A stretch of 64,000 nt of DNA from an uncultured Ignavibacteria bacterium (GTDB taxonomy: Bacteria; Bacteroidota; Ignavibacteria; SZUA-365): the NCBI GenBank assembly GCA_913061095.1, contig CAJXVM010000001.1:310001-374000 (forward strand), in the 5' to 3' direction. The translations under genes were made by a program, and so were the position numbers. Below the pieces are notes generated by a model that saw nothing but the letters and a program-made list of their open reading frames with translations, was not told the DNA's origin and did not search any database. This document shows, one piece after another, positions 55,570-64,000 of the stretch (its first letter is position 1; every line of letters starts with the position of its first letter).

Positions 55570-56211
55570 TCAGGAGGGATTATCGAGCAGATCATGATCA
55601 ACTGCGTAGCGAACAATATCCGCAGTCGTTCGCAGCTGAAGCTTTTCCAGGATGCGTGCGCGGTACGTACTGACCGTGCGGGCACTGATCGCGAGCTTCT
55701 CCCCGATGGCCTGGTTTTTCTGTCCGTCGGCAATAAGCATCATCACCTGGAATTCCCTGTCGGAGAGCTGATTGTGCAAATGCTCCGTGGAAGAATGCTC
55801 GACTGCGAACAGAAGATGATCAGCGACGGATGGGGTGATATACCGCCCCCCGCCAAAAATGCGCCGCACTGCATCGACCAGCTCATCCGGAGCAGCGTCC
55901 TTTCTGAGATAGCCGGAAGCGCCGGCACGCAGAGACCGCACCGCGAGGACCTGTTCGGGATGCATTGTCAGCACGAGGATACCTGTATCCGGCGCGCAGG
56001 ATTTCAGATCGTGAATGATGTCCAGACCGCTGCGATCAGGCAGCGAGATATCGAGAAGCAGTACATCGGGAGGATCCTTCCGAACAAGGTCCAGCGCCTC
56101 CGTGGCGGATCCTGCTTCACCGGAAATCGCCATATCAGATTCCAGCGCAAGAATCTTCTTGAGTCCCTCTCGCACAATGGTGTGGTCATCGACCAGCACA
56201 ACCCGGATCAT
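55570..56211 (-). CDS. NarL/LuxR-type response regulator
   Basis: This is a 213-residue response regulator with an N-terminal receiver (Asp8-Asp9, phosphoacceptor Asp54 in LLLDISLPDRSG, Lys104 in YLRKDA). The C-terminal LuxR helix-turn-helix (LSDREFQVMMLIADGQKNQAIGEKLAISARTVSTYRARILEKL, about 147-190) is located here for reference. It is the likely partner of the histidine kinase upstream. GGAGAGAA directly before ATG 56211 fixes the start, and a near-perfect promoter lies about 160 bases upstream. Confidence 0.93.
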   Translation of the reverse strand: MIRVVLVDDHTIVREGLKKILALESDMAISGEAGSATEALDLVRKDPPDVLLLDISLPDRSGLDIIHDLKSCAPDTGILVLTMHPEQVLAVRSLRAGASGYLRKDAAPDELVDAVRRIFGGGRYITPSVADHLLFAVEHSSTEHLHNQLSDREFQVMMLIADGQKNQAIGEKLAISARTVSTYRARILEKLQLRTTADIVRYAVDHDLLDNPS

Positions 56212-56368
56212 TTCTCTCCTCAGGCCGACAGATACCGTCGACGCCGTTGATCTATGATGAAGAATACGGGAAAGCAAGCGTCAGTAACGTCTGCGATGTC
56301 CGAGGGTGATATCAGGCGAATGGACAGTGATCATCACAATGCGGGAGCAGCGACGTTACCTGGGCATC

Positions 56369-56397
56369 ATTATACAAAGACCACAGTGTATAGTCAA
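56369..56397 (-). promoter_or_regulatory. Near-consensus sigma70 promoter of the NarL-type regulator
   Basis: On the minus strand, TTGACT (56397-56392), a spacer of exactly 17 bases, then TATAAT (56374-56369). It matches 11 of 12 consensus bases. It sits in the 237-base gap between the kinase and the regulator, so the regulator is not simply co-transcribed. Confidence 0.8.
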
Positions 56398-56448
56398 CAC
56401 GATTGCGCTCCCGGCCGCATGCTGCCATATCCGTTCATCGTCCGGGAT

Positions 56449-58521
56449 TCAGTTCGGCACATCGACGATGATTCTGGTGCCGCCGCCTTCCACGCTGTGG
56501 ATGGTACACGTTCCGCCGAGCGACTCGGCGCGTTCACGCATGCTGCTGAGCCCGATTCCACCATTCACACCGGGCGCCTGTGCGGGAATGCCCCGCCCGT
56601 CGTCGGCAATTTCAAGGCGCAGCCGGGGGCCTTCGGCCCGCAGTCGCAGCCAGATGGTCCGTGCGCCGGCATGACGGACCGTATTCGTGAGCGCCTCCTG
56701 AACAATGCGGTACAGCGCAAGAGAACTGCGATTGCTGGGCATGGTCTGCAGGTCTTCGATTTCTTCATGAAGTGTCAGTCCGCTTCGCTCAGACATGTCG
56801 CGGACATACTGCCGGAGAGCATCCGGCAGGCCCAGCTGGTCCAGCATTCCGGGCCGCATCTCCCAGGCGATCTGACGCACCTGGTCAATGGTCTGCCGCA
56901 GCAGCGAATTCATTGATTCAATCGCTTCTCCCACCTCTCGCAAATCACACTCCGTCCATTCCCTGTCGTCATTGTCTCGCATGACGCCTGTTCGCAGGAT
57001 GCGCTGCAGCAGGGTCAGATCGATTTTCAGGGCGGTCAGTGACTGCCCGAGCCCGTCATGGATTTCACGCGAGAGATGCAGCCGTTCCTCCTCGCGTACT
57101 TCGTCGAGTCGCTCGGCGAGGGCACGCAGACGCTCGCGGCTGTCGGCGATTTCCCGTTCCGCCTGTTTGCGCTCTGTAATGTCGCGCCAGAAACAGAGCA
57201 GCATGGGCTGTTCACTGATGTCAACCCTGCTGAGACTGACTTCGATGACCGCCTGCTCACCACTGCGGCGCAGGTGAATCCAGTCGAAAACGTTTCGTGT
57301 ACCGACAGCGCTGGCCCGCATGAGACTGCGCGCCTTTGCCTCGGACGGCACGCCGTCCGGCTGCGTCGGCGGAGAAATATCCGCCGGATGCTTCCCGATG
57401 ATGTCCTGCGGTTCGTACCGCAGCATCCGTGCTGCACTCTGATTGCAGGAAACAAAAACGCCGTCTTTAATGAGCAGAATTCCGTCGTTTGCGCGTTCAA
57501 TGAGAATTCGATACCGTTCCTCGCTGGCGCGCAGTGCTTCCTCCGCGCGCACACGTTCGGTCATGTCAAAACCGACGGCCTGGAAGCGCACGATCTTCCC
57601 GTCATCATCGAAAAATGCGCGGTCGGTCCACTGATGAATCACCTCCTTCCCCCTCAGCTGAACGCTGTGCGAATAGGTATAGGAAGGATACGACGGTGTA
57701 AGCGACATGTACGTCTTTCGCACTTCCGCGGCAGCTTCCTCAGAGAGGAAGTCGAGAAAGCGCTTTCCGATGAGTTCCCCCGGCGTCGTGCTGAAGTACT
57801 CCGCATATGCGCGGTTCACATAGGTCAGGGTACTGTCGGTGGTGAACTCGCAAACGAGTGCCGGGAGATCTTCCATCAGTGCGCGGTACCGTTCCTCGCT
57901 CCGCCGCAGTGAATCGACAGCGTGCTCGAGTTCGGTGACATCCTGAACCATGGAGATGAGATGATCGAATGTCCCGTGATCATCGAAGATGGGCGTATTG
58001 AGCCATTCGCAGACGATCGTGCGGCCGCTCTTTGTCAGATTCACGTTCTTCCCGTGCGGCTCCGGATTGCCTTCCATCCAGCTCCTCCGGATATCCTCCA
58101 CGAAGGCGTTCGATGATTCCGGGATGATGCTTCCATACGGACTTTTCCCCTTCAGTTCGTCACTGCTGAAGCCGAACATTTTTTCGGCGGCAGGATTCAG
58201 GTACTGAAAACGGAATTCGCGGTCGGTGACGATGTAGCCGATGGGCATGCGGTCGATGTGCATGCGCAGCTGCGAGAGCACCTCCTCCCGCTCCCTGTGC
58301 CGTCTGCGGTACGCGGAGAACTGTCGCCGCAGGAACAGCAGCAGAAGCAGTGCGGTGAATGACACGAACACCCATCCCTTGATCATGCTCAGTGTCTGCA
58401 GCGACACGTACGGAGCAAGGTAGTCGAACAGCAGCATGTCCGAAAAGAGAATCCAGATCGTGCTGATGGCAAAATACGTGAGCGGAATGGTCCACTCTGG
58501 TTTCCGTTGGAATCGCGACAT
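56449..58521 (-). CDS. Three-PAS NarX-type sensor histidine kinase
   Basis: This is a 690-residue membrane sensor kinase. Two N-terminal helices (PLTYFAISTIWILFSDMLL and GWVFVSFTALLLLLFL) are followed by three PAS domains (roughly residues 90-210, 215-340, 345-460). Then comes a HisKA_3 dimerisation domain with phosphoacceptor His488 (LHLSREIHDGLGQSL) and an HATPase_c domain (VQEALTNTVRHAGA, ADDGRGIPAQA, GIGLSSMRERAESLGG). HisKA_3 kinases phosphorylate NarL-type regulators, which matches the gene downstream. PAS ligand unknown. Confidence 0.93.
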   Translation of the reverse strand: MSRFQRKPEWTIPLTYFAISTIWILFSDMLLFDYLAPYVSLQTLSMIKGWVFVSFTALLLLLFLRRQFSAYRRRHREREEVLSQLRMHIDRMPIGYIVTDREFRFQYLNPAAEKMFGFSSDELKGKSPYGSIIPESSNAFVEDIRRSWMEGNPEPHGKNVNLTKSGRTIVCEWLNTPIFDDHGTFDHLISMVQDVTELEHAVDSLRRSEERYRALMEDLPALVCEFTTDSTLTYVNRAYAEYFSTTPGELIGKRFLDFLSEEAAAEVRKTYMSLTPSYPSYTYSHSVQLRGKEVIHQWTDRAFFDDDGKIVRFQAVGFDMTERVRAEEALRASEERYRILIERANDGILLIKDGVFVSCNQSAARMLRYEPQDIIGKHPADISPPTQPDGVPSEAKARSLMRASAVGTRNVFDWIHLRRSGEQAVIEVSLSRVDISEQPMLLCFWRDITERKQAEREIADSRERLRALAERLDEVREEERLHLSREIHDGLGQSLTALKIDLTLLQRILRTGVMRDNDDREWTECDLREVGEAIESMNSLLRQTIDQVRQIAWEMRPGMLDQLGLPDALRQYVRDMSERSGLTLHEEIEDLQTMPSNRSSLALYRIVQEALTNTVRHAGARTIWLRLRAEGPRLRLEIADDGRGIPAQAPGVNGGIGLSSMRERAESLGGTCTIHSVEGGGTRIIVDVPN

Positions 58522-58637: not shown

Positions 58638-61238
58638 TCACCGGCGCGCGTGCCTGACGACGAGTTTCCCGAATGCCGTTCGACCGGCGGCCTCGATGCG
58701 TATGATATACACACCGTCGGCAAGATTTCCCGTCTCGAGCACGATACCACGTCTGCCGGCATCCAGCCGTACCTGCCGGATCTCCCGCACCCGGCCGAGT
58801 GCGTCAACCAGCGTCAGGCGGTGCTCCGCCGCCATCGGTGTGCTGACCGGGATGGTCACGACGTTGTCGCAGGGTTGCGGGAAAGCGGTCTCCAGCACCA
58901 GCTCCGAGGGCAGCGCAGCCGGAGCCGCGGCGATGGCCTCGAGCCGCAGCAGTGCCGCCATCCCGGGAGCGAGGTGCGCGCCGAAACTCTCCATTCCTGC
59001 GGCGGCATCAACGACATCCCGTGCCGGTGCCGTGATGCTGTCACCGCTGAGCACGTCGATGACACGCCATCGCTCCGCCCGCGTGGCTCCGCCGCCCAGC
59101 GTCACCGCGATGCGACGGGCCTCGCCATCCCTCACCCGTTTATTGATGAGAAGAACATACATGGCCGTATCGGCGGCGGCGCTGCCGCGGAACACCGCAG
59201 CTTCCGCATAACTGTCTTCGGTGGCATCGTAGCCGTCTTCGCCTGCGGTGCGGATGCGTCGCAGGAGTTCATCCCCCGGCATCCCGAGCTGAAGACGCTC
59301 GATACTCCATGCGCGATCCCAGAAAAGCGGGAACAGCGTATCACCGATGACGCGGAGAAAATCATGATGAAACACCCGCATGCTGTCCCAGAGATTCTCC
59401 CCGTATGCATTGCGCGCGCGCTTGCAGTGATCAAAGGTGAGGAAACCGCGCCCACCGACGTTGAATGGATCGGTGGTGTCGGCCCCCGGAGTACCGCCGA
59501 ATACGTAGTACCAGATGCCCTTCGCACCGTACGCGAGCGCCATGTTCGCCGACAGCCGCAGCTCGTTCGTCGTCGGATCCCGCAGCCACATCAGGTCCGA
59601 AGGAGGATGCCCGGTGGCATCACCGCCGGCGATCCCGTATGCGTAGTTCTGCACACAGGGGATCCAGTCACCCATGGCGCCGTCGGTCCTGCGCTGTTCC
59701 GCGATACGCCGAAAGTGCTCGATGCGGCGGCCCATGCATGCGGTCTGAAACGGAGCACGGTAGTGAAACGCATAGTACCGCTCGTCACCGGGAAGCGGCG
59801 CGCGCCCGTTCCCCTCCGCTCCCATCAGCGTGTACGGATAGGCATACAGCGACTGCAGTGACCGCCGGAACGCATGCATGACCAGTTCGAGTCCGCTGAG
59901 ACCCATCGCCACCGGCAGGTATCGCATCGGGATGCTGCGTCCGTTCGACCGCTCCTCGATGAGATTCGCAACGAACGCCGAAGAGGCGATATTGCCGAGG
60001 CCGCCGATCGACTCCTCGAGCATGACGGCCGCCGGAGCCGGAGCGCGCTCTCCGGCACAGAGCGTATCAACGAAACGCGTGAGAAACTCCCGCGGCGTCG
60101 GATGCCAGTTGGACGGCTGCGCCGGATTGGAGGGATTGAACAACGCATAGGCGATACCGCAGCTCAGACCGATACCATCGACGGCGATGAGGGGACGGCG
60201 GTCATCAAACGGCATGTATTCGAGGAGGAACGGCAATCTGCGCGCGCCCACGTCGGGTACGATGCGCCCACCGCGGTTGATGCCGGAAGCGCGAACCGCG
60301 GTCTCCACACTGTCGCGCAGTCCTTCGCGGAGCCGGACCCGGCCGCTTCCCTCCTCCACTTCCGCGCGGAAAATGTCAAGAAGGAATTCGTGCACCGTGT
60401 CTATGACACCGCCGGCGGAATGAAAATCACTTCCTCGCAACACAAAACGGCCGGCAGTGGAGGCGTCCTCGTCCTCGATGGTGAGGAGAAAAATGGTTGT
60501 GGTATCGTCGGGAATCGCGTCCCCGGCCGGAGTCGCGGCATGCAGGTACTGCAGGCGGAGTGAGAGGTAGTATACGCCATCGCTGCGCATTCCCCCCTCG
60601 AACATCCCGAACTCCGGATGCGACGCGGGAAGCCGGCGCAGCAGCACGCCCCGCGGCATCGCGGTGCATGGATACAGCACGGCATTGTTCCACGGCGTGA
60701 GCGGATATGACGACACGTCGCGGGGCTGCGTGTGGAAGGGCTCGTGGTCGATACAGCGGGCGCCCACCGTGTCGCACATCCGCGGGGATTCGACGTGATA
60801 CATCAGCCGTTCCATCCCGGAGTACGACATGGCGCCGTCGCCGACGCCCCGGTCCGAAAGCACCAGGCTGATTCCGTGCGCGGCCGCCATGCGCCGGATG
60901 CGATGCGTGCCGTCGGAGAACAGCGCGTCGAAGCCGAGCGTCACGCCCGCGAGATCGATGCCGAGATCGCGCAGCTGCTGCCAGCGTTCGAGCGGAATGT
61001 CACCCGGAGCACAGTATCCCGGCGCGGTCTGCGCACCGGAGGACCACTGCAGCCAGCGGCCGCCGTTGGCGGGGATGTTCGGCACCGGGAAGTCCGTGGA
61101 CGGCGCGACGGAACCGGCACCGATGACAAAACGTCCGAGAGAGGATGCGGATGCATCGCGGGTCTGCGCGGACACAGACGCGATACCGAAGACGAGAAAC
61201 GCACAGGAGTATATCAGCGCACCCGGATACCTTTTCAT
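58638..61238 (-). CDS. Secreted protein with T9SS sorting domain, glycosidase-like body
   Basis: This is an exported protein of about 866 residues. After a signal peptide comes a large region without a family I can name. A pattern like LRLSANMALAYGAKGIWYYVFGG suggests a glycoside-hydrolase-type TIM barrel (GH-like), and QWSSGAQTAPGYCAPGD is unusual. The last ~80 residues form a type A T9SS C-terminal sorting domain (FPQPCDNVVTIPVS, LVDALGRVREIRQVRLDAGRRGIVLETGNLADGVYIIRIEA, KLVVRHARR). It is therefore a surface or secreted cargo. Whether the body has enzyme activity is inference. Confidence 0.75.
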   Translation of the reverse strand: MKRYPGALIYSCAFLVFGIASVSAQTRDASASSLGRFVIGAGSVAPSTDFPVPNIPANGGRWLQWSSGAQTAPGYCAPGDIPLERWQQLRDLGIDLAGVTLGFDALFSDGTHRIRRMAAAHGISLVLSDRGVGDGAMSYSGMERLMYHVESPRMCDTVGARCIDHEPFHTQPRDVSSYPLTPWNNAVLYPCTAMPRGVLLRRLPASHPEFGMFEGGMRSDGVYYLSLRLQYLHAATPAGDAIPDDTTTIFLLTIEDEDASTAGRFVLRGSDFHSAGGVIDTVHEFLLDIFRAEVEEGSGRVRLREGLRDSVETAVRASGINRGGRIVPDVGARRLPFLLEYMPFDDRRPLIAVDGIGLSCGIAYALFNPSNPAQPSNWHPTPREFLTRFVDTLCAGERAPAPAAVMLEESIGGLGNIASSAFVANLIEERSNGRSIPMRYLPVAMGLSGLELVMHAFRRSLQSLYAYPYTLMGAEGNGRAPLPGDERYYAFHYRAPFQTACMGRRIEHFRRIAEQRRTDGAMGDWIPCVQNYAYGIAGGDATGHPPSDLMWLRDPTTNELRLSANMALAYGAKGIWYYVFGGTPGADTTDPFNVGGRGFLTFDHCKRARNAYGENLWDSMRVFHHDFLRVIGDTLFPLFWDRAWSIERLQLGMPGDELLRRIRTAGEDGYDATEDSYAEAAVFRGSAAADTAMYVLLINKRVRDGEARRIAVTLGGGATRAERWRVIDVLSGDSITAPARDVVDAAAGMESFGAHLAPGMAALLRLEAIAAAPAALPSELVLETAFPQPCDNVVTIPVSTPMAAEHRLTLVDALGRVREIRQVRLDAGRRGIVLETGNLADGVYIIRIEAAGRTAFGKLVVRHARR

Positions 61239-61335
61239 GCCGATAAAATGCAAGCGATTCGGTCATGGTGCAAGCCATGCAATCCAGAGAATCCACACCC
61301 CGGTGGCCATGGCGGATGAGACAGGAGCAGGCACC

Positions 61336-61364
61336 AAAAAAAAGAGCGCCCCGGCGGAGCGCTC
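61336..61364 (-). terminator. Rho-independent terminator of the cysteine-rich 601-residue gene
   Basis: On the minus strand, the stem GAGCGC/GCGCTC (61364-61359 with 61349-61344, 9-base GC-rich loop) is followed by eight T, 44 bases past the gene's stop. Confidence 0.85.
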
Positions 61365-61407
61365 ATTGTTTTGGATCAGAAGATGTCGCGATCAGCCGTC
61401 GTCCCAA

Positions 61408-63213
61408 TCAGGCGGGCACGGCTGCGCAGGCATGGAGCCGCTGCTCCAGCGCCGTGAGTTCTTCCTTCATCTTCTCACGAACGTGCTCGGCTTCTTCGCG
61501 GATATGCGGGATCATCTCCCGGTAGTAATCGATGCCGTCAAGCAGATTTTCGTAAAACGTTGTGAAGAACGCCTCGGTGTGTGTCGAACCCTCGCGCGCG
61601 TGCTCATCCATGCTCTTCTGAAAATGGTCGATGTACAGGCTGAGCTCCTTGAGAAACATGTTCGGCCGGCGCTTGTCGGTCACAAGGTTGATTCGGCCGT
61701 AAATGTGATCCACCATTTCACGCAGTGAGGCGATGCGCGAGAAATAGGCGAGATTCGGGCCGGGACACACGGCAGAGGTCATGCTCTGCTTGTACAGGGA
61801 AATCGAGTGTTTCGTCAATGCCGAAGCGATGAGTCCTTCACAGAGACATGCCTTGTCGACGATGCGGTCGTAGGCGACACGGAACTCCTCGGGATGCAGA
61901 TATTTTTCCTTGAGTTCGCGGATCTTCTTGTTGATGTAGGTCTTCGATGCCGTGCAGACAGGTTTGTCGGAAAATTCGGTGTTGAAGGATAGGAATTTTT
62001 TCTTGCAGGGACTCCCCGGTTTCCCTTCGGCCGCCTGCTCCAGCTTTTCGCGATCCCGCGCATTGCCGCGCAGATTATTGAACGGCACACCGAGCGGTGA
62101 GATCCCGCTCAAGTAGATATCCTTTTCACCGGCGCGGCTGAGCCGTTCCAGCGTTTCGTCATCGACATTCGTCGCTTCGGGTACGAGCAGGAAGGGACTC
62201 CCCCATCCCACGCTCTGCACGTCATAGTAACGGCGGAGGAATGCGTGTTCCTCGGCTTTCCCAACGCCGCCCTGCACGGTGACATGCATGGGCAGCGCCG
62301 AAGCGCTGATATCGAGTCCGTGCGACAGCAACGCGGGCTGCAGGAGTTCCGCGACGGTCTCGAACAGCTCCGAGCGCCGCGTGCGGAATTCCTCGAGAAT
62401 CGGACCAAGCAGCAGTCCGTCGGTCGCGAAGGCATGGCCGCCGCAGTTGAGTCCCGACTCGATGCGGTACTCCGACACCCAAAGTCCCTTTTTCGCGAGG
62501 AACTTCCCCTGAATCAGTGCCGAGCGGAAATCCGACACTTTGATGACGATACGCTTGCCGAGCGTGCCGTCGGGACGGGGACGCAGGGAATCGAAGCCCG
62601 AGGCATAACTGTACAGGCGGGGATTCATTCCGGCGGAGAAGACCACGGCGCCCTCGGCGCGGCTGTTTGCAAAACCGCGCAGGGCCGCATGGGCGTCGTT
62701 GAACGGCGAAGGCAGGATCGTTCCGTCAGCGGCACGGTTCGCCTTGTCCACCTTTGTCATGATATTCACGTCGATCGAGCCGGGTGTGAGGTCTTCGAGA
62801 AGCTGCGTCTGCAGCCGCGCGACCAGCGCTGCGTCATCCGACGTCGTCATGATGCGGTACAGCGCTTTCTGATCCGAGTCTTCCGGGAGCAGTGCGAAGT
62901 AGCGGTGCAGATCGTCGTTCTTCGCAAAGCCCTCCCGCTTCATGGTCGCGACCTGCTCGCGCACGATGCGGTCCACCATGTCGACATAGGCCGTGACGCG
63001 CCGCGCACGGGCGTCCTCATCGCCGTCCGCGATGGGAGTGTACGTCCAGCCATGCTCAGCAAAGTATCGCTCGCGCAGCTTTTCCAGCAGCGCATCGTCG
63101 ACGATGGATATCACCGAAGAGATGCCGTATTTCGCAACTTTCAGCGGTGTGTCGACCGAGTAGCCGACACCGAGCACGGGGATGTGAAATGTATGATCAG
63201 AGAAAGCGGGCAT
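61408..63213 (-). CDS. Conserved-looking 601-residue cysteine-containing protein, unknown function
   Basis: No family recognised. The N-terminus (PVLGVGYSVDTPLKVAKYGISSVISIVDD) and the segment GLNCGGHAFATDGLLLGPILEEF look like an FMN-binding TIM barrel of the nitronate monooxygenase kind, a weak resemblance. A C-terminal part has cysteines at 403, 420, 456, 458 and 483 (with 257 and 596), of which the CLC pair and the others could hold an Fe-S cluster. The last 120 residues are helical. No signal peptide. It is alone with its own terminator. Treat function as unknown. Confidence 0.7.
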   Translation of the reverse strand: MPAFSDHTFHIPVLGVGYSVDTPLKVAKYGISSVISIVDDALLEKLRERYFAEHGWTYTPIADGDEDARARRVTAYVDMVDRIVREQVATMKREGFAKNDDLHRYFALLPEDSDQKALYRIMTTSDDAALVARLQTQLLEDLTPGSIDVNIMTKVDKANRAADGTILPSPFNDAHAALRGFANSRAEGAVVFSAGMNPRLYSYASGFDSLRPRPDGTLGKRIVIKVSDFRSALIQGKFLAKKGLWVSEYRIESGLNCGGHAFATDGLLLGPILEEFRTRRSELFETVAELLQPALLSHGLDISASALPMHVTVQGGVGKAEEHAFLRRYYDVQSVGWGSPFLLVPEATNVDDETLERLSRAGEKDIYLSGISPLGVPFNNLRGNARDREKLEQAAEGKPGSPCKKKFLSFNTEFSDKPVCTASKTYINKKIRELKEKYLHPEEFRVAYDRIVDKACLCEGLIASALTKHSISLYKQSMTSAVCPGPNLAYFSRIASLREMVDHIYGRINLVTDKRRPNMFLKELSLYIDHFQKSMDEHAREGSTHTEAFFTTFYENLLDGIDYYREMIPHIREEAEHVREKMKEELTALEQRLHACAAVPA

Positions 63214-63421
63214 GCGTATCCTTTCTCGCCTGCGGCAGCGAAACTGCGTCTGACGGTCAAATTCCAGATTTTTCCTATCCCTAAAGTACAGATTGTTTCA
63301 ACGCAAAACACGCCGGGGCGCGAATTTCTGCCCTGCGAATATTTTCATCGCCGGCGATGCGGATGGAAGTTTCCATTCATTCCGAGAGGTCAGATATCCA
63401 GTGATTTCCTGTCAGCGAGAC

Positions 63422-63449
63422 TTGTCAGTGCGGGAAAACCTGTTAATTT
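63422..63449 (+). promoter_or_regulatory. Candidate promoter of the last gene
   Basis: TTGTCA (63422-63427), a 16-base spacer, then TAATTT (63444-63449), 37 bases before ATG 63487. Confidence 0.4.
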
Positions 63450-63486
63450 GAGAGACCTCTCCACTTGTGACACGGGAGCACGTTAC

Positions 63487-64000
63487 ATGCCGACAACCAT
63501 CAGTTTTCTCAGAAACCCGGACTACGGAACGTCCGTTGTGCTTTTTCTTCTTTCGCCCGCGGGGCTGACGTTCGACGCCAAGGAGATCGGCCGGAATCTC
63601 TACGGCAGGCACGATTACGAGATCGAGGCCATCACCATTCCGGGACTCGCGCCGCGCAACGGCTTCCGTTTCTCGGAAATCCCCGTCCACTGGACGGACT
63701 TCCTCGAGCTATCCTTCTCACATGCCGACCATGCCCTGTTCTACATCCCCGGGAAGCAGAGATTTCAGGAAATCTCGAAGGAAAGTCTGCTGCAGCAGAA
63801 TCCCGACCTCTATTCCTTTTCATTTTACCGCTTCACATGTGAGGATTATGTGCCGGAGAAGCGTGAAGAGGAGCGTATCGAGGCCGCAGCGCGCGGCGTG
63901 GCTCCTCCTCCGGCGACGGTCGCGGATGCAAACGCCAAACCTGCGGACACCGCATCGGGCGGAATCATCGCGGAAAAAGTGGACAGATCCGGGAGCAACA
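63487..64000 (+). CDS. Hypothetical protein, N-terminal part (runs off the right edge)
   Basis: No family recognised. About 171 residues are visible. There is no clear signal peptide; residues 1-40 contain a moderately hydrophobic segment (TSVVLFLLSPAGLTF). A mixed alpha/beta region follows to about residue 130, and an Ala/Pro-rich tail starts near the window end (residues ~134-171). A GGGAG lies about 10 bases before the ATG and a promoter candidate just upstream. The truncation prevents a domain call. Confidence 0.6.
   Translation, partial: MPTTISFLRNPDYGTSVVLFLLSPAGLTFDAKEIGRNLYGRHDYEIEAITIPGLAPRNGFRFSEIPVHWTDFLELSFSHADHALFYIPGKQRFQEISKESLLQQNPDLYSFSFYRFTCEDYVPEKREEERIEAAARGVAPPPATVADANAKPADTASGGIIAEKVDRSGSN

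Follow-up and report, generated by a model that had tools for sequence, protein, structure and literature searches.

The window analysed here, a stretch of 64,000 nucleotides from the 4.6 Mb genome of an uncultured Ignavibacteria bacterium (G000), raises the question of what is made by a long gene close to its end, whose 601-residue product had been described as a cysteine-rich protein of no known family. The open reading frame at 61408-63213 is uninterrupted, starts with an ATG, comprises 601 codons and lies on the minus strand (the same span on the plus strand holds three stops). That it is long, intact and conserved, as the original prediction had it, is borne out by its homologues: with a match at E up to 0.001 taken as presence, these occur in 29 of 61 relatives and in 112 of 296 genomes sampled across the phylum, nearly always as a single copy (the 112 include one genome, G328, with only a partial, 129-residue C-terminal match). 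Most matches in both sets cover the full length, with identities of 43-78%, and the open frame is therefore no product of chance. Close homologues come from records titled Bacteroidetes, Melioribacter and Ignavibacteria; further records are titled Cloacimonetes, Neomarinimicrobiota and Chlorobiota, besides one MAG of the Thermus/Deinococcus group, and 12 of 40 genomes from the phylum of a locus titled Calditrichia hold a homologue. One genome has a second, broken copy (G139:C1:4371179-4372862), in pieces with internal stops, and an intact copy elsewhere.

Existing family models do not recognize this protein. Pfam-A gave nothing at cut-off and two matches below it, both in the C-terminal part; NCBIfam gave no match at E up to 10, and thus neither TIGR03151 (FabK) nor TIGR02814 (PfaD); PADLOC gave 0 matches and a phmmer search of PDB sequences none at E up to 1. 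The nitronate monooxygenase (NMO) model PF03060 has no match to it either, the gene being absent from the PF03060 matches of G000, a genome in which TIGR02814 finds nothing. A profile of 81 homologues retrieved only apolipoprotein-like helices and similar; such matches of the C-terminal helices (Apolipoprotein, PHM7_cyt and the like) are weak and scattered over unrelated coiled families, and were treated as compositional. No link emerged to defence systems (the PADLOC result) or to plasmids (three chance-level tblastn matches to helicases, E 0.2-0.5), and a viral structure library gave a single NMO-type phage protein (E 3e-4), which proved uninformative. We found no name for the family in the open-access literature surveyed. 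The label ‘no known family’ thus holds in that no Pfam-A, NCBIfam or PADLOC family takes the protein in, but it overlooks that kin exist and that the protein adjoins FabX, the acyl-carrier-protein (ACP) dehydrogenase/isomerase of Helicobacter pylori, which introduces double bonds into fatty acids and carries FMN and a [4Fe-4S] cluster held by four cysteines of its C-terminal subdomain (Zhou et al., 2021; PMC8626469). The gene and the parts of its product that bear on this relationship are as follows:

61408..63213, minus strand: gene of 601 amino acids, ATG at 63213, stop included
62059..63213, minus strand: residues 1-385, predicted eight-stranded TIM barrel with an NMO/FabX-type FMN site (AlphaFold2 strands; top fold matches FabX, FabK and NMO)
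62794..63093, minus strand: residues 41-140, helices inserted after barrel strand 2 and before strand 3, an insertion that far exceeds its counterpart in the FabX orthologues examined here
62488..62535, minus strand: residues 227-242, helix aligned gap-free to the ACP-docking helix alpha-7 of FabX
62443..62445, minus strand: C257 codon, aligned with the FMN contact S179 of FabX
62434..62436, minus strand: H260 codon, aligned with the catalytic base H182 of FabX, invariant in 101/101 rows
61684..62058, minus strand: residues 386-510, predicted Fe-S subdomain (from cysteine invariance, the arithmetic of the FabX superposition, and comparison with aligned FabX orthologues and 420-residue proteins)
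62005..62007, minus strand: C403 codon, likely cluster ligand at the position of FabX C300
61954..61956, minus strand: C420 codon, likely cluster ligand whose exact FabX equivalent is ambiguous
61846..61848, minus strand: C456 codon, likely cluster ligand, matched manually with FabX C320
61840..61842, minus strand: C458 codon, likely cluster ligand, matched manually with FabX A322, a residue in contact with the cluster
61765..61767, minus strand: C483 codon, in the invariant CPGPN motif, aligned with F339 of FabX FTGAN, an FMN contact
61411..61683, minus strand: residues 511-601, C-terminal helices (AlphaFold2: 519-541, 547-570, 576-597) absent from the 363-residue FabX
61344..61364, minus strand: intrinsic terminator, a 9-bp stem plus T8, some 44 bases past the stop codon

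The terminator that had been predicted is thus present as a pattern, reading 61364-61344. The gene's supposed promoter region, by contrast, lacks support, its sole basis being a 273-bp gap before the divergent frame at 63487: no sigma-70-type site occurs in 61200-63600, and the Bacteroidetes-type promoter consensus TTTG-N15-23-TAnnTTTG has no exact match in the whole window. That divergent plus-strand frame (63487-64000) runs off the window after 171 residues and has no Pfam match. On the minus strand, 58638-61253 encodes an 871-residue protein with a weak C-terminal Por_Secre_tail match below cut-off and no other Pfam family, and 55570-58521 an adjacent LuxR-type response regulator and three-PAS histidine kinase, an ordinary two-component pair.

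The predicted fold points to FabX. An AlphaFold2 model of the window protein with 80 homologues (pLDDT 89.3, pTM 0.91) has eight barrel strands (9-11, 33-36, 147-152, 189-193, 221-226, 248-252, 310-314 and 334-336), and together with its fold matches it upholds the NMO-like N-terminal barrel of the original prediction as a TIM barrel of the nitronate monooxygenase kind. Foldseek against the PDB had H. pylori FabX (HP0773; PDB 7e1q, 9lt5) as its top match (E 1.9e-10), above PfaD, polyketide enoyl reductases, FabK and NMO. In VIA-align, FabX is the clear best solved match (Z 28.4, rmsd 3.0 Å over 331 of 366 residues, spanning chain residues 12-363), ahead of FabK (24.0), NMO (about 20-23) and PfaD (20-22.5); PfaD and the trans-acting enoyl reductases of polyketide synthases share the barrel (Z about 19-22.5) but fall clearly below FabX, and TIGR02814 does not match the gene. 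Identity to FabX is about 15-19% (18-19% in the superposition). As described by Zhou et al. (2021; PMC8626469), the FabX barrel comprises residues 1-266 and the Fe-S subdomain 267-363; going by that boundary, the Fe-S subdomain accounts for 76 or more of the 331 aligned residues (331 - 255), and the predicted model therefore has the barrel and C-terminal Fe-S subdomain in one chain that characterize the FabX family. Folded alone, the 125-residue Fe-S segment gave a weak model (pLDDT 78, pTM 0.57), whose structure matches do not include FabX and whose best VIA-align match (Z 3.0) is unrelated; this model is too weak to serve as evidence for a new fold.

To bridge the sequence gap to FabX, we searched the phylum for FabX-like proteins. 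Two genomes have clear orthologues (L235 and L236, of 355 and 361 residues; L235 matches FabX at 4e-74), and 62 of the 296 genomes have an NMO-type protein of about 420 residues (L190, L192-L194, L196-L202), one of which, L193, matches FabX at 3e-28. When the FabX orthologues and this 420-residue family were merged into one profile, hhalign matched it to the 601-residue family with an E-value of 2.8e-6 (probability 88%, 209 columns), as against 0.07 and 0.21 for reversed profiles, 0.14 for the best of 20 column shuffles and 0.025 for a 39-sequence FabK/NMO profile. Significance was reached only after 20 divergent homologues had been added and the two sets merged: early comparisons of shallow profiles were not significant (0.27, with a poorly extracted NMO set, and 0.078), a first 420-family profile gave 0.04, and the FabX orthologues or the 420-residue family alone gave a weak 0.009 and 0.007. 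As each half of the merged profile is weak by itself, we regard the profile link as supportive rather than overwhelming. In a tree the stem of the 601-residue family measures 5 changes per column, a warning of long-branch effects, and with so long a stem the family is left unplaced. In a scan of 20-residue windows the individual windows were not decisive, the top pair against FabX orthologues lying off the common diagonal and probably arising by chance; the case rests on a collinear set of motifs.

In alignments with FabX orthologues, residues 227-260 run gap-free to FabX 149-182, a segment in which ordinary NMO/FabK proteins have 7 residues fewer, and H260 falls on H182; the GGH motif with the catalytic histidine, expected of the FabX family, is present in all 101 rows. 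The basic ACP-docking residues of alpha-7, another feature of that family, are also found: R230, K237 and K242 align with FabX K152, K159 and R164 and are basic in all 101 rows for the first two (98 R and 3 K; 99 K and 2 R) and in 100 of 101 for the third, and FabX R160 is F238 here. In FabX, K152 and R164 contact ACP, and the R164A mutation abolished ACP binding (PMC8626469). Around the flavin, N150 corresponds to FabX N99, G315-G316 to G220-G221 and C257 to S179, and the invariant CPGPN falls on F339-T-G-A-N, the first three residues of which touch FMN in FabX (PMC8626469). In contrast, the FMN-binding Q240 of FabX is G336 in the 601-residue protein, and E175 lines up with S253 unless a shift of one residue is allowed. 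Across the family, N150, E252, GGH 258-260, G315-G316, G336-W337 and the PGPN after C483 are invariant in 101 of 101 rows.

The cysteines are conserved as strictly. Those listed in the original prediction (403, 420, 456, 458 and 483) are correctly placed and, in the homologue alignment that it had called for, kept in 101 of 101 rows, the outcome that favours it; C257, which it did not list, is equally invariant, all six being cysteine throughout the 100 rows of an initial alignment (in which some rows represent the same species from two collections) as well as in the wider one. The other unlisted cysteine, C596, is not conserved (4 of 100 rows). The idea of a metal cluster gains from this conservation and from the fact that the best structural relative, FabX, carries FMN and [4Fe-4S], but the five probably do not form a single cluster, since C483 aligns with F339, an FMN contact. 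This leaves C403, C420, C456 and C458 as the likely ligands of a predicted cluster, with C257 and C483 likely at the flavin. C403 stands in place of FabX C300, and C456-L-C458 plausibly corresponds to C320-I-A322, an assignment made by hand, for which the 420-residue family offers a matching CLC motif. We prefer C456 over C420 in this role because C456-L-C458 starts the helix leading into CPGPN, just as C320-I-A starts alpha-15 before FTGAN; a joint MAFFT alignment instead puts C307 of the FabX orthologues, the fourth FabX cysteine, on C420 and not on C456. The C-x3-C-x3-C-x11-C spacing of the FabX family is replaced here by C403-x16-C420-x35-C456-x-C458.

Compared as a whole, the protein shares with FabX the fold over barrel and C-terminal subdomain, the catalytic histidine, the asparagine and GG of the FMN site, the gap-free basic docking helix, the FTGAN/CPGPN element and cysteines in the C-terminal subdomain. 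It differs in length (601 versus 363 residues), in cysteine spacing and in having G336 for Q240, and adds the invariant C257 and C483, an insertion at 41-140 and another separating C420 from C456, and the C-terminal helices. Zhou et al. (2021; PMC8626469) require a sequence identity above 50% for membership in the FabX family, far from the value in our superposition (phmmer gave no match at all), and the activity expected of members is dehydrogenation plus isomerization of C8-C10 acyl-ACP. In view of the unlike ligand spacing and the large insertions we treat the family as separate from FabX: by those membership rules it is not FabX but an unnamed family beside it, which probably works like it. 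The 420-residue proteins share with it the long docking helix, an EKDI...S.x.G.P...LR element and a CLC motif (KTCLCTGM versus KACLCEGL), but they match PF03060, lack CPGPN and have two more cysteines after the CLC. With six conserved-looking cysteines, including those of the CLC motif, and no NCBIfam match above cut-off for the two members scanned, they give the impression of a further Fe-S relative of FabX within Bacteroidota. Membership in plain NMO or FabK, which share the TIM barrel and the GGH catalytic motif but lack an Fe-S subdomain and have the shorter docking segment, is ruled out for the 601-residue protein by the missing PF03060 and NCBIfam matches and the poor FabK/NMO profile score.

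What, then, might the protein do? Computation supports the fold, the conservation and the way in which the residues of catalysis, FMN site and docking line up, and the shared fold, catalytic base, FMN-site residues and docking helix lead us to judge a FabX-like flavin/Fe-S ACP dehydrogenase/isomerase the most likely function, with about an even chance of being right. The residues appear compatible with an FMN- and [4Fe-4S]-containing flavoenzyme, which would be an FMN TIM-barrel enzyme with a C-terminal [4Fe-4S] subdomain, on a distant and separate branch beside H. pylori FabX. A carrier protein, such as acyl-ACP, would dock on the basic helix 227-242 and thread its acyl thioester between FMN and H260; H260 would remove the alpha proton and FMN take the hydride, yielding an enoyl thioester that might then be isomerized towards an unsaturated fatty acid. 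C403, C420, C456 and C458 would hold the cluster, which would act as electron acceptor for the reduced FMN, and C257 and C483 would sit at the flavin. In FabX, the cluster does take electrons from FMN (PMC8626469). Counting against this reading are the low identity to FabX, the weakness of either half of the merged profile, the unplaced position in the tree, the changes at Q240 and E175, the different cysteine spacing and the Fe-S segment, which when folded alone had no convincing structural match.

The main rival keeps the ancestry and both cofactors and changes the reaction: the protein could be a cluster-fed enoyl or dienoyl thioester reductase, or could act on another carrier or CoA thioester. 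We hold this to be a quite real possibility: second among the fold matches (Z about 24) stands the enoyl-ACP reductase FabK, which uses the same barrel for the reverse reaction (PMC8626469), and the loss of Q240 and E175, the new cysteines C257 and C483 at the flavin and the large insertions suggest another substrate. However, the residues of the basic docking helix are kept in 98-101 of 101 rows, and the Fe-S subdomain fills the site that serves FabK for NAD(P)H binding (PMC8626469). Alternatively, the cysteines might bind zinc or form disulfides in an NMO-type or structural protein devoid of an Fe-S cluster, and the barrel does resemble NMO (Z about 20-23); this we consider unlikely, given that the best match over the whole length, FabX, holds its [4Fe-4S] by four cysteines in this very subdomain (PMC8626469), and that the profiles favour the FabX branch (2.8e-6) over FabK/NMO (0.025), with no PF03060 match.

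The genomic neighborhoods bring up one further alternative. In 80 loci there is no conserved operon and there are few recurrent neighbours, such as an ABC-type ATPase in 10 loci (named by eye) and, in nine (L056, L059, L063, L071, L075, L077, L085, L093, L100), nadA and nadB, also named by eye, downstream on the same strand. The nine include Flavobacteriaceae and an Ignavibacteria MAG by record title; in the latter (L056) an ORF resembling an Rrf2-type regulator by eye begins 6 bases after the gene and separates it from nadA/nadB. This linkage would suit a redox role in NAD or cofactor metabolism, but it extends to just these 9 of 80 loci, six of which are titled Algibacter, Mariniflexile, Hyunsoonleella or Flavobacteriaceae, and neither fold nor motif ties the protein to NAD synthesis; we regard this reading as highly improbable. 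Against the FabX-like function, a scan of the flanks of the 80 loci with strict motifs, run with no positive control, found none of ACP, KAS, FabZ, FabH or desaturases.

Across the 296 genomes, the 601-residue family (112 genomes) and the FabX orthologues with the 420-residue family (64 genomes) never occur together (hypergeometric p=3.6e-16), the 420-residue family itself being found in 0 of the 112 holders; this exclusivity is largely phylogenetic, as 62 of the 64 genomes belong to two families (f31 and f29), and we give it no weight. A desaturase-type protein (PF00487) over cut-off is present in 173 of the 296 genomes, including 88 of the 112 holders and excluding the other 24 (these counts leave out three sub-cut-off matches, in G076, G101 and G215), so that many holders may have another route to unsaturated acids. 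PF00487 and the 601-residue family are positively associated over all 296 genomes and are not associated once the FabX/420 genomes are left out (p=0.18). Canonical FabA was found in three of the 296 genomes (G153, G203 and G237; E 1e-62 to 1e-73), of which only G237 is over the TIGR01749 cut-off, with two close below; the rest of the TIGR01749 matches, none better than E 4e-11, were taken to be FabZ-like.

In sum, the original prediction of an NMO-like barrel with metal-binding cysteines is sound in its core and partly supported overall. More tentatively, Bacteroidota and several phyla without FabA might use this family as a second FabX-type route, independent of the first, for obtaining unsaturated or otherwise modified acyl chains; its cluster site would be rearranged, and two invariant cysteines would flank the flavin. 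If that is true, such an arrangement could free the re-oxidation of FMN from oxygen or add a thiol chemistry new to the superfamily. Present mostly as a single copy in over a third of the phylum's sampled genomes, this strictly conserved enzyme has neither a name nor a Pfam-A, NCBIfam or PADLOC model. If its activity is that of FabX-type acyl-ACP dehydrogenases/isomerases, it would show by what means many of these bacteria could form unsaturated fatty acids, and the joining of FMN to an Fe-S cluster within this barrel would be known in a second natural version. It may, accordingly, be an overlooked membrane-lipid enzyme of the Bacteroidetes and their neighbours.
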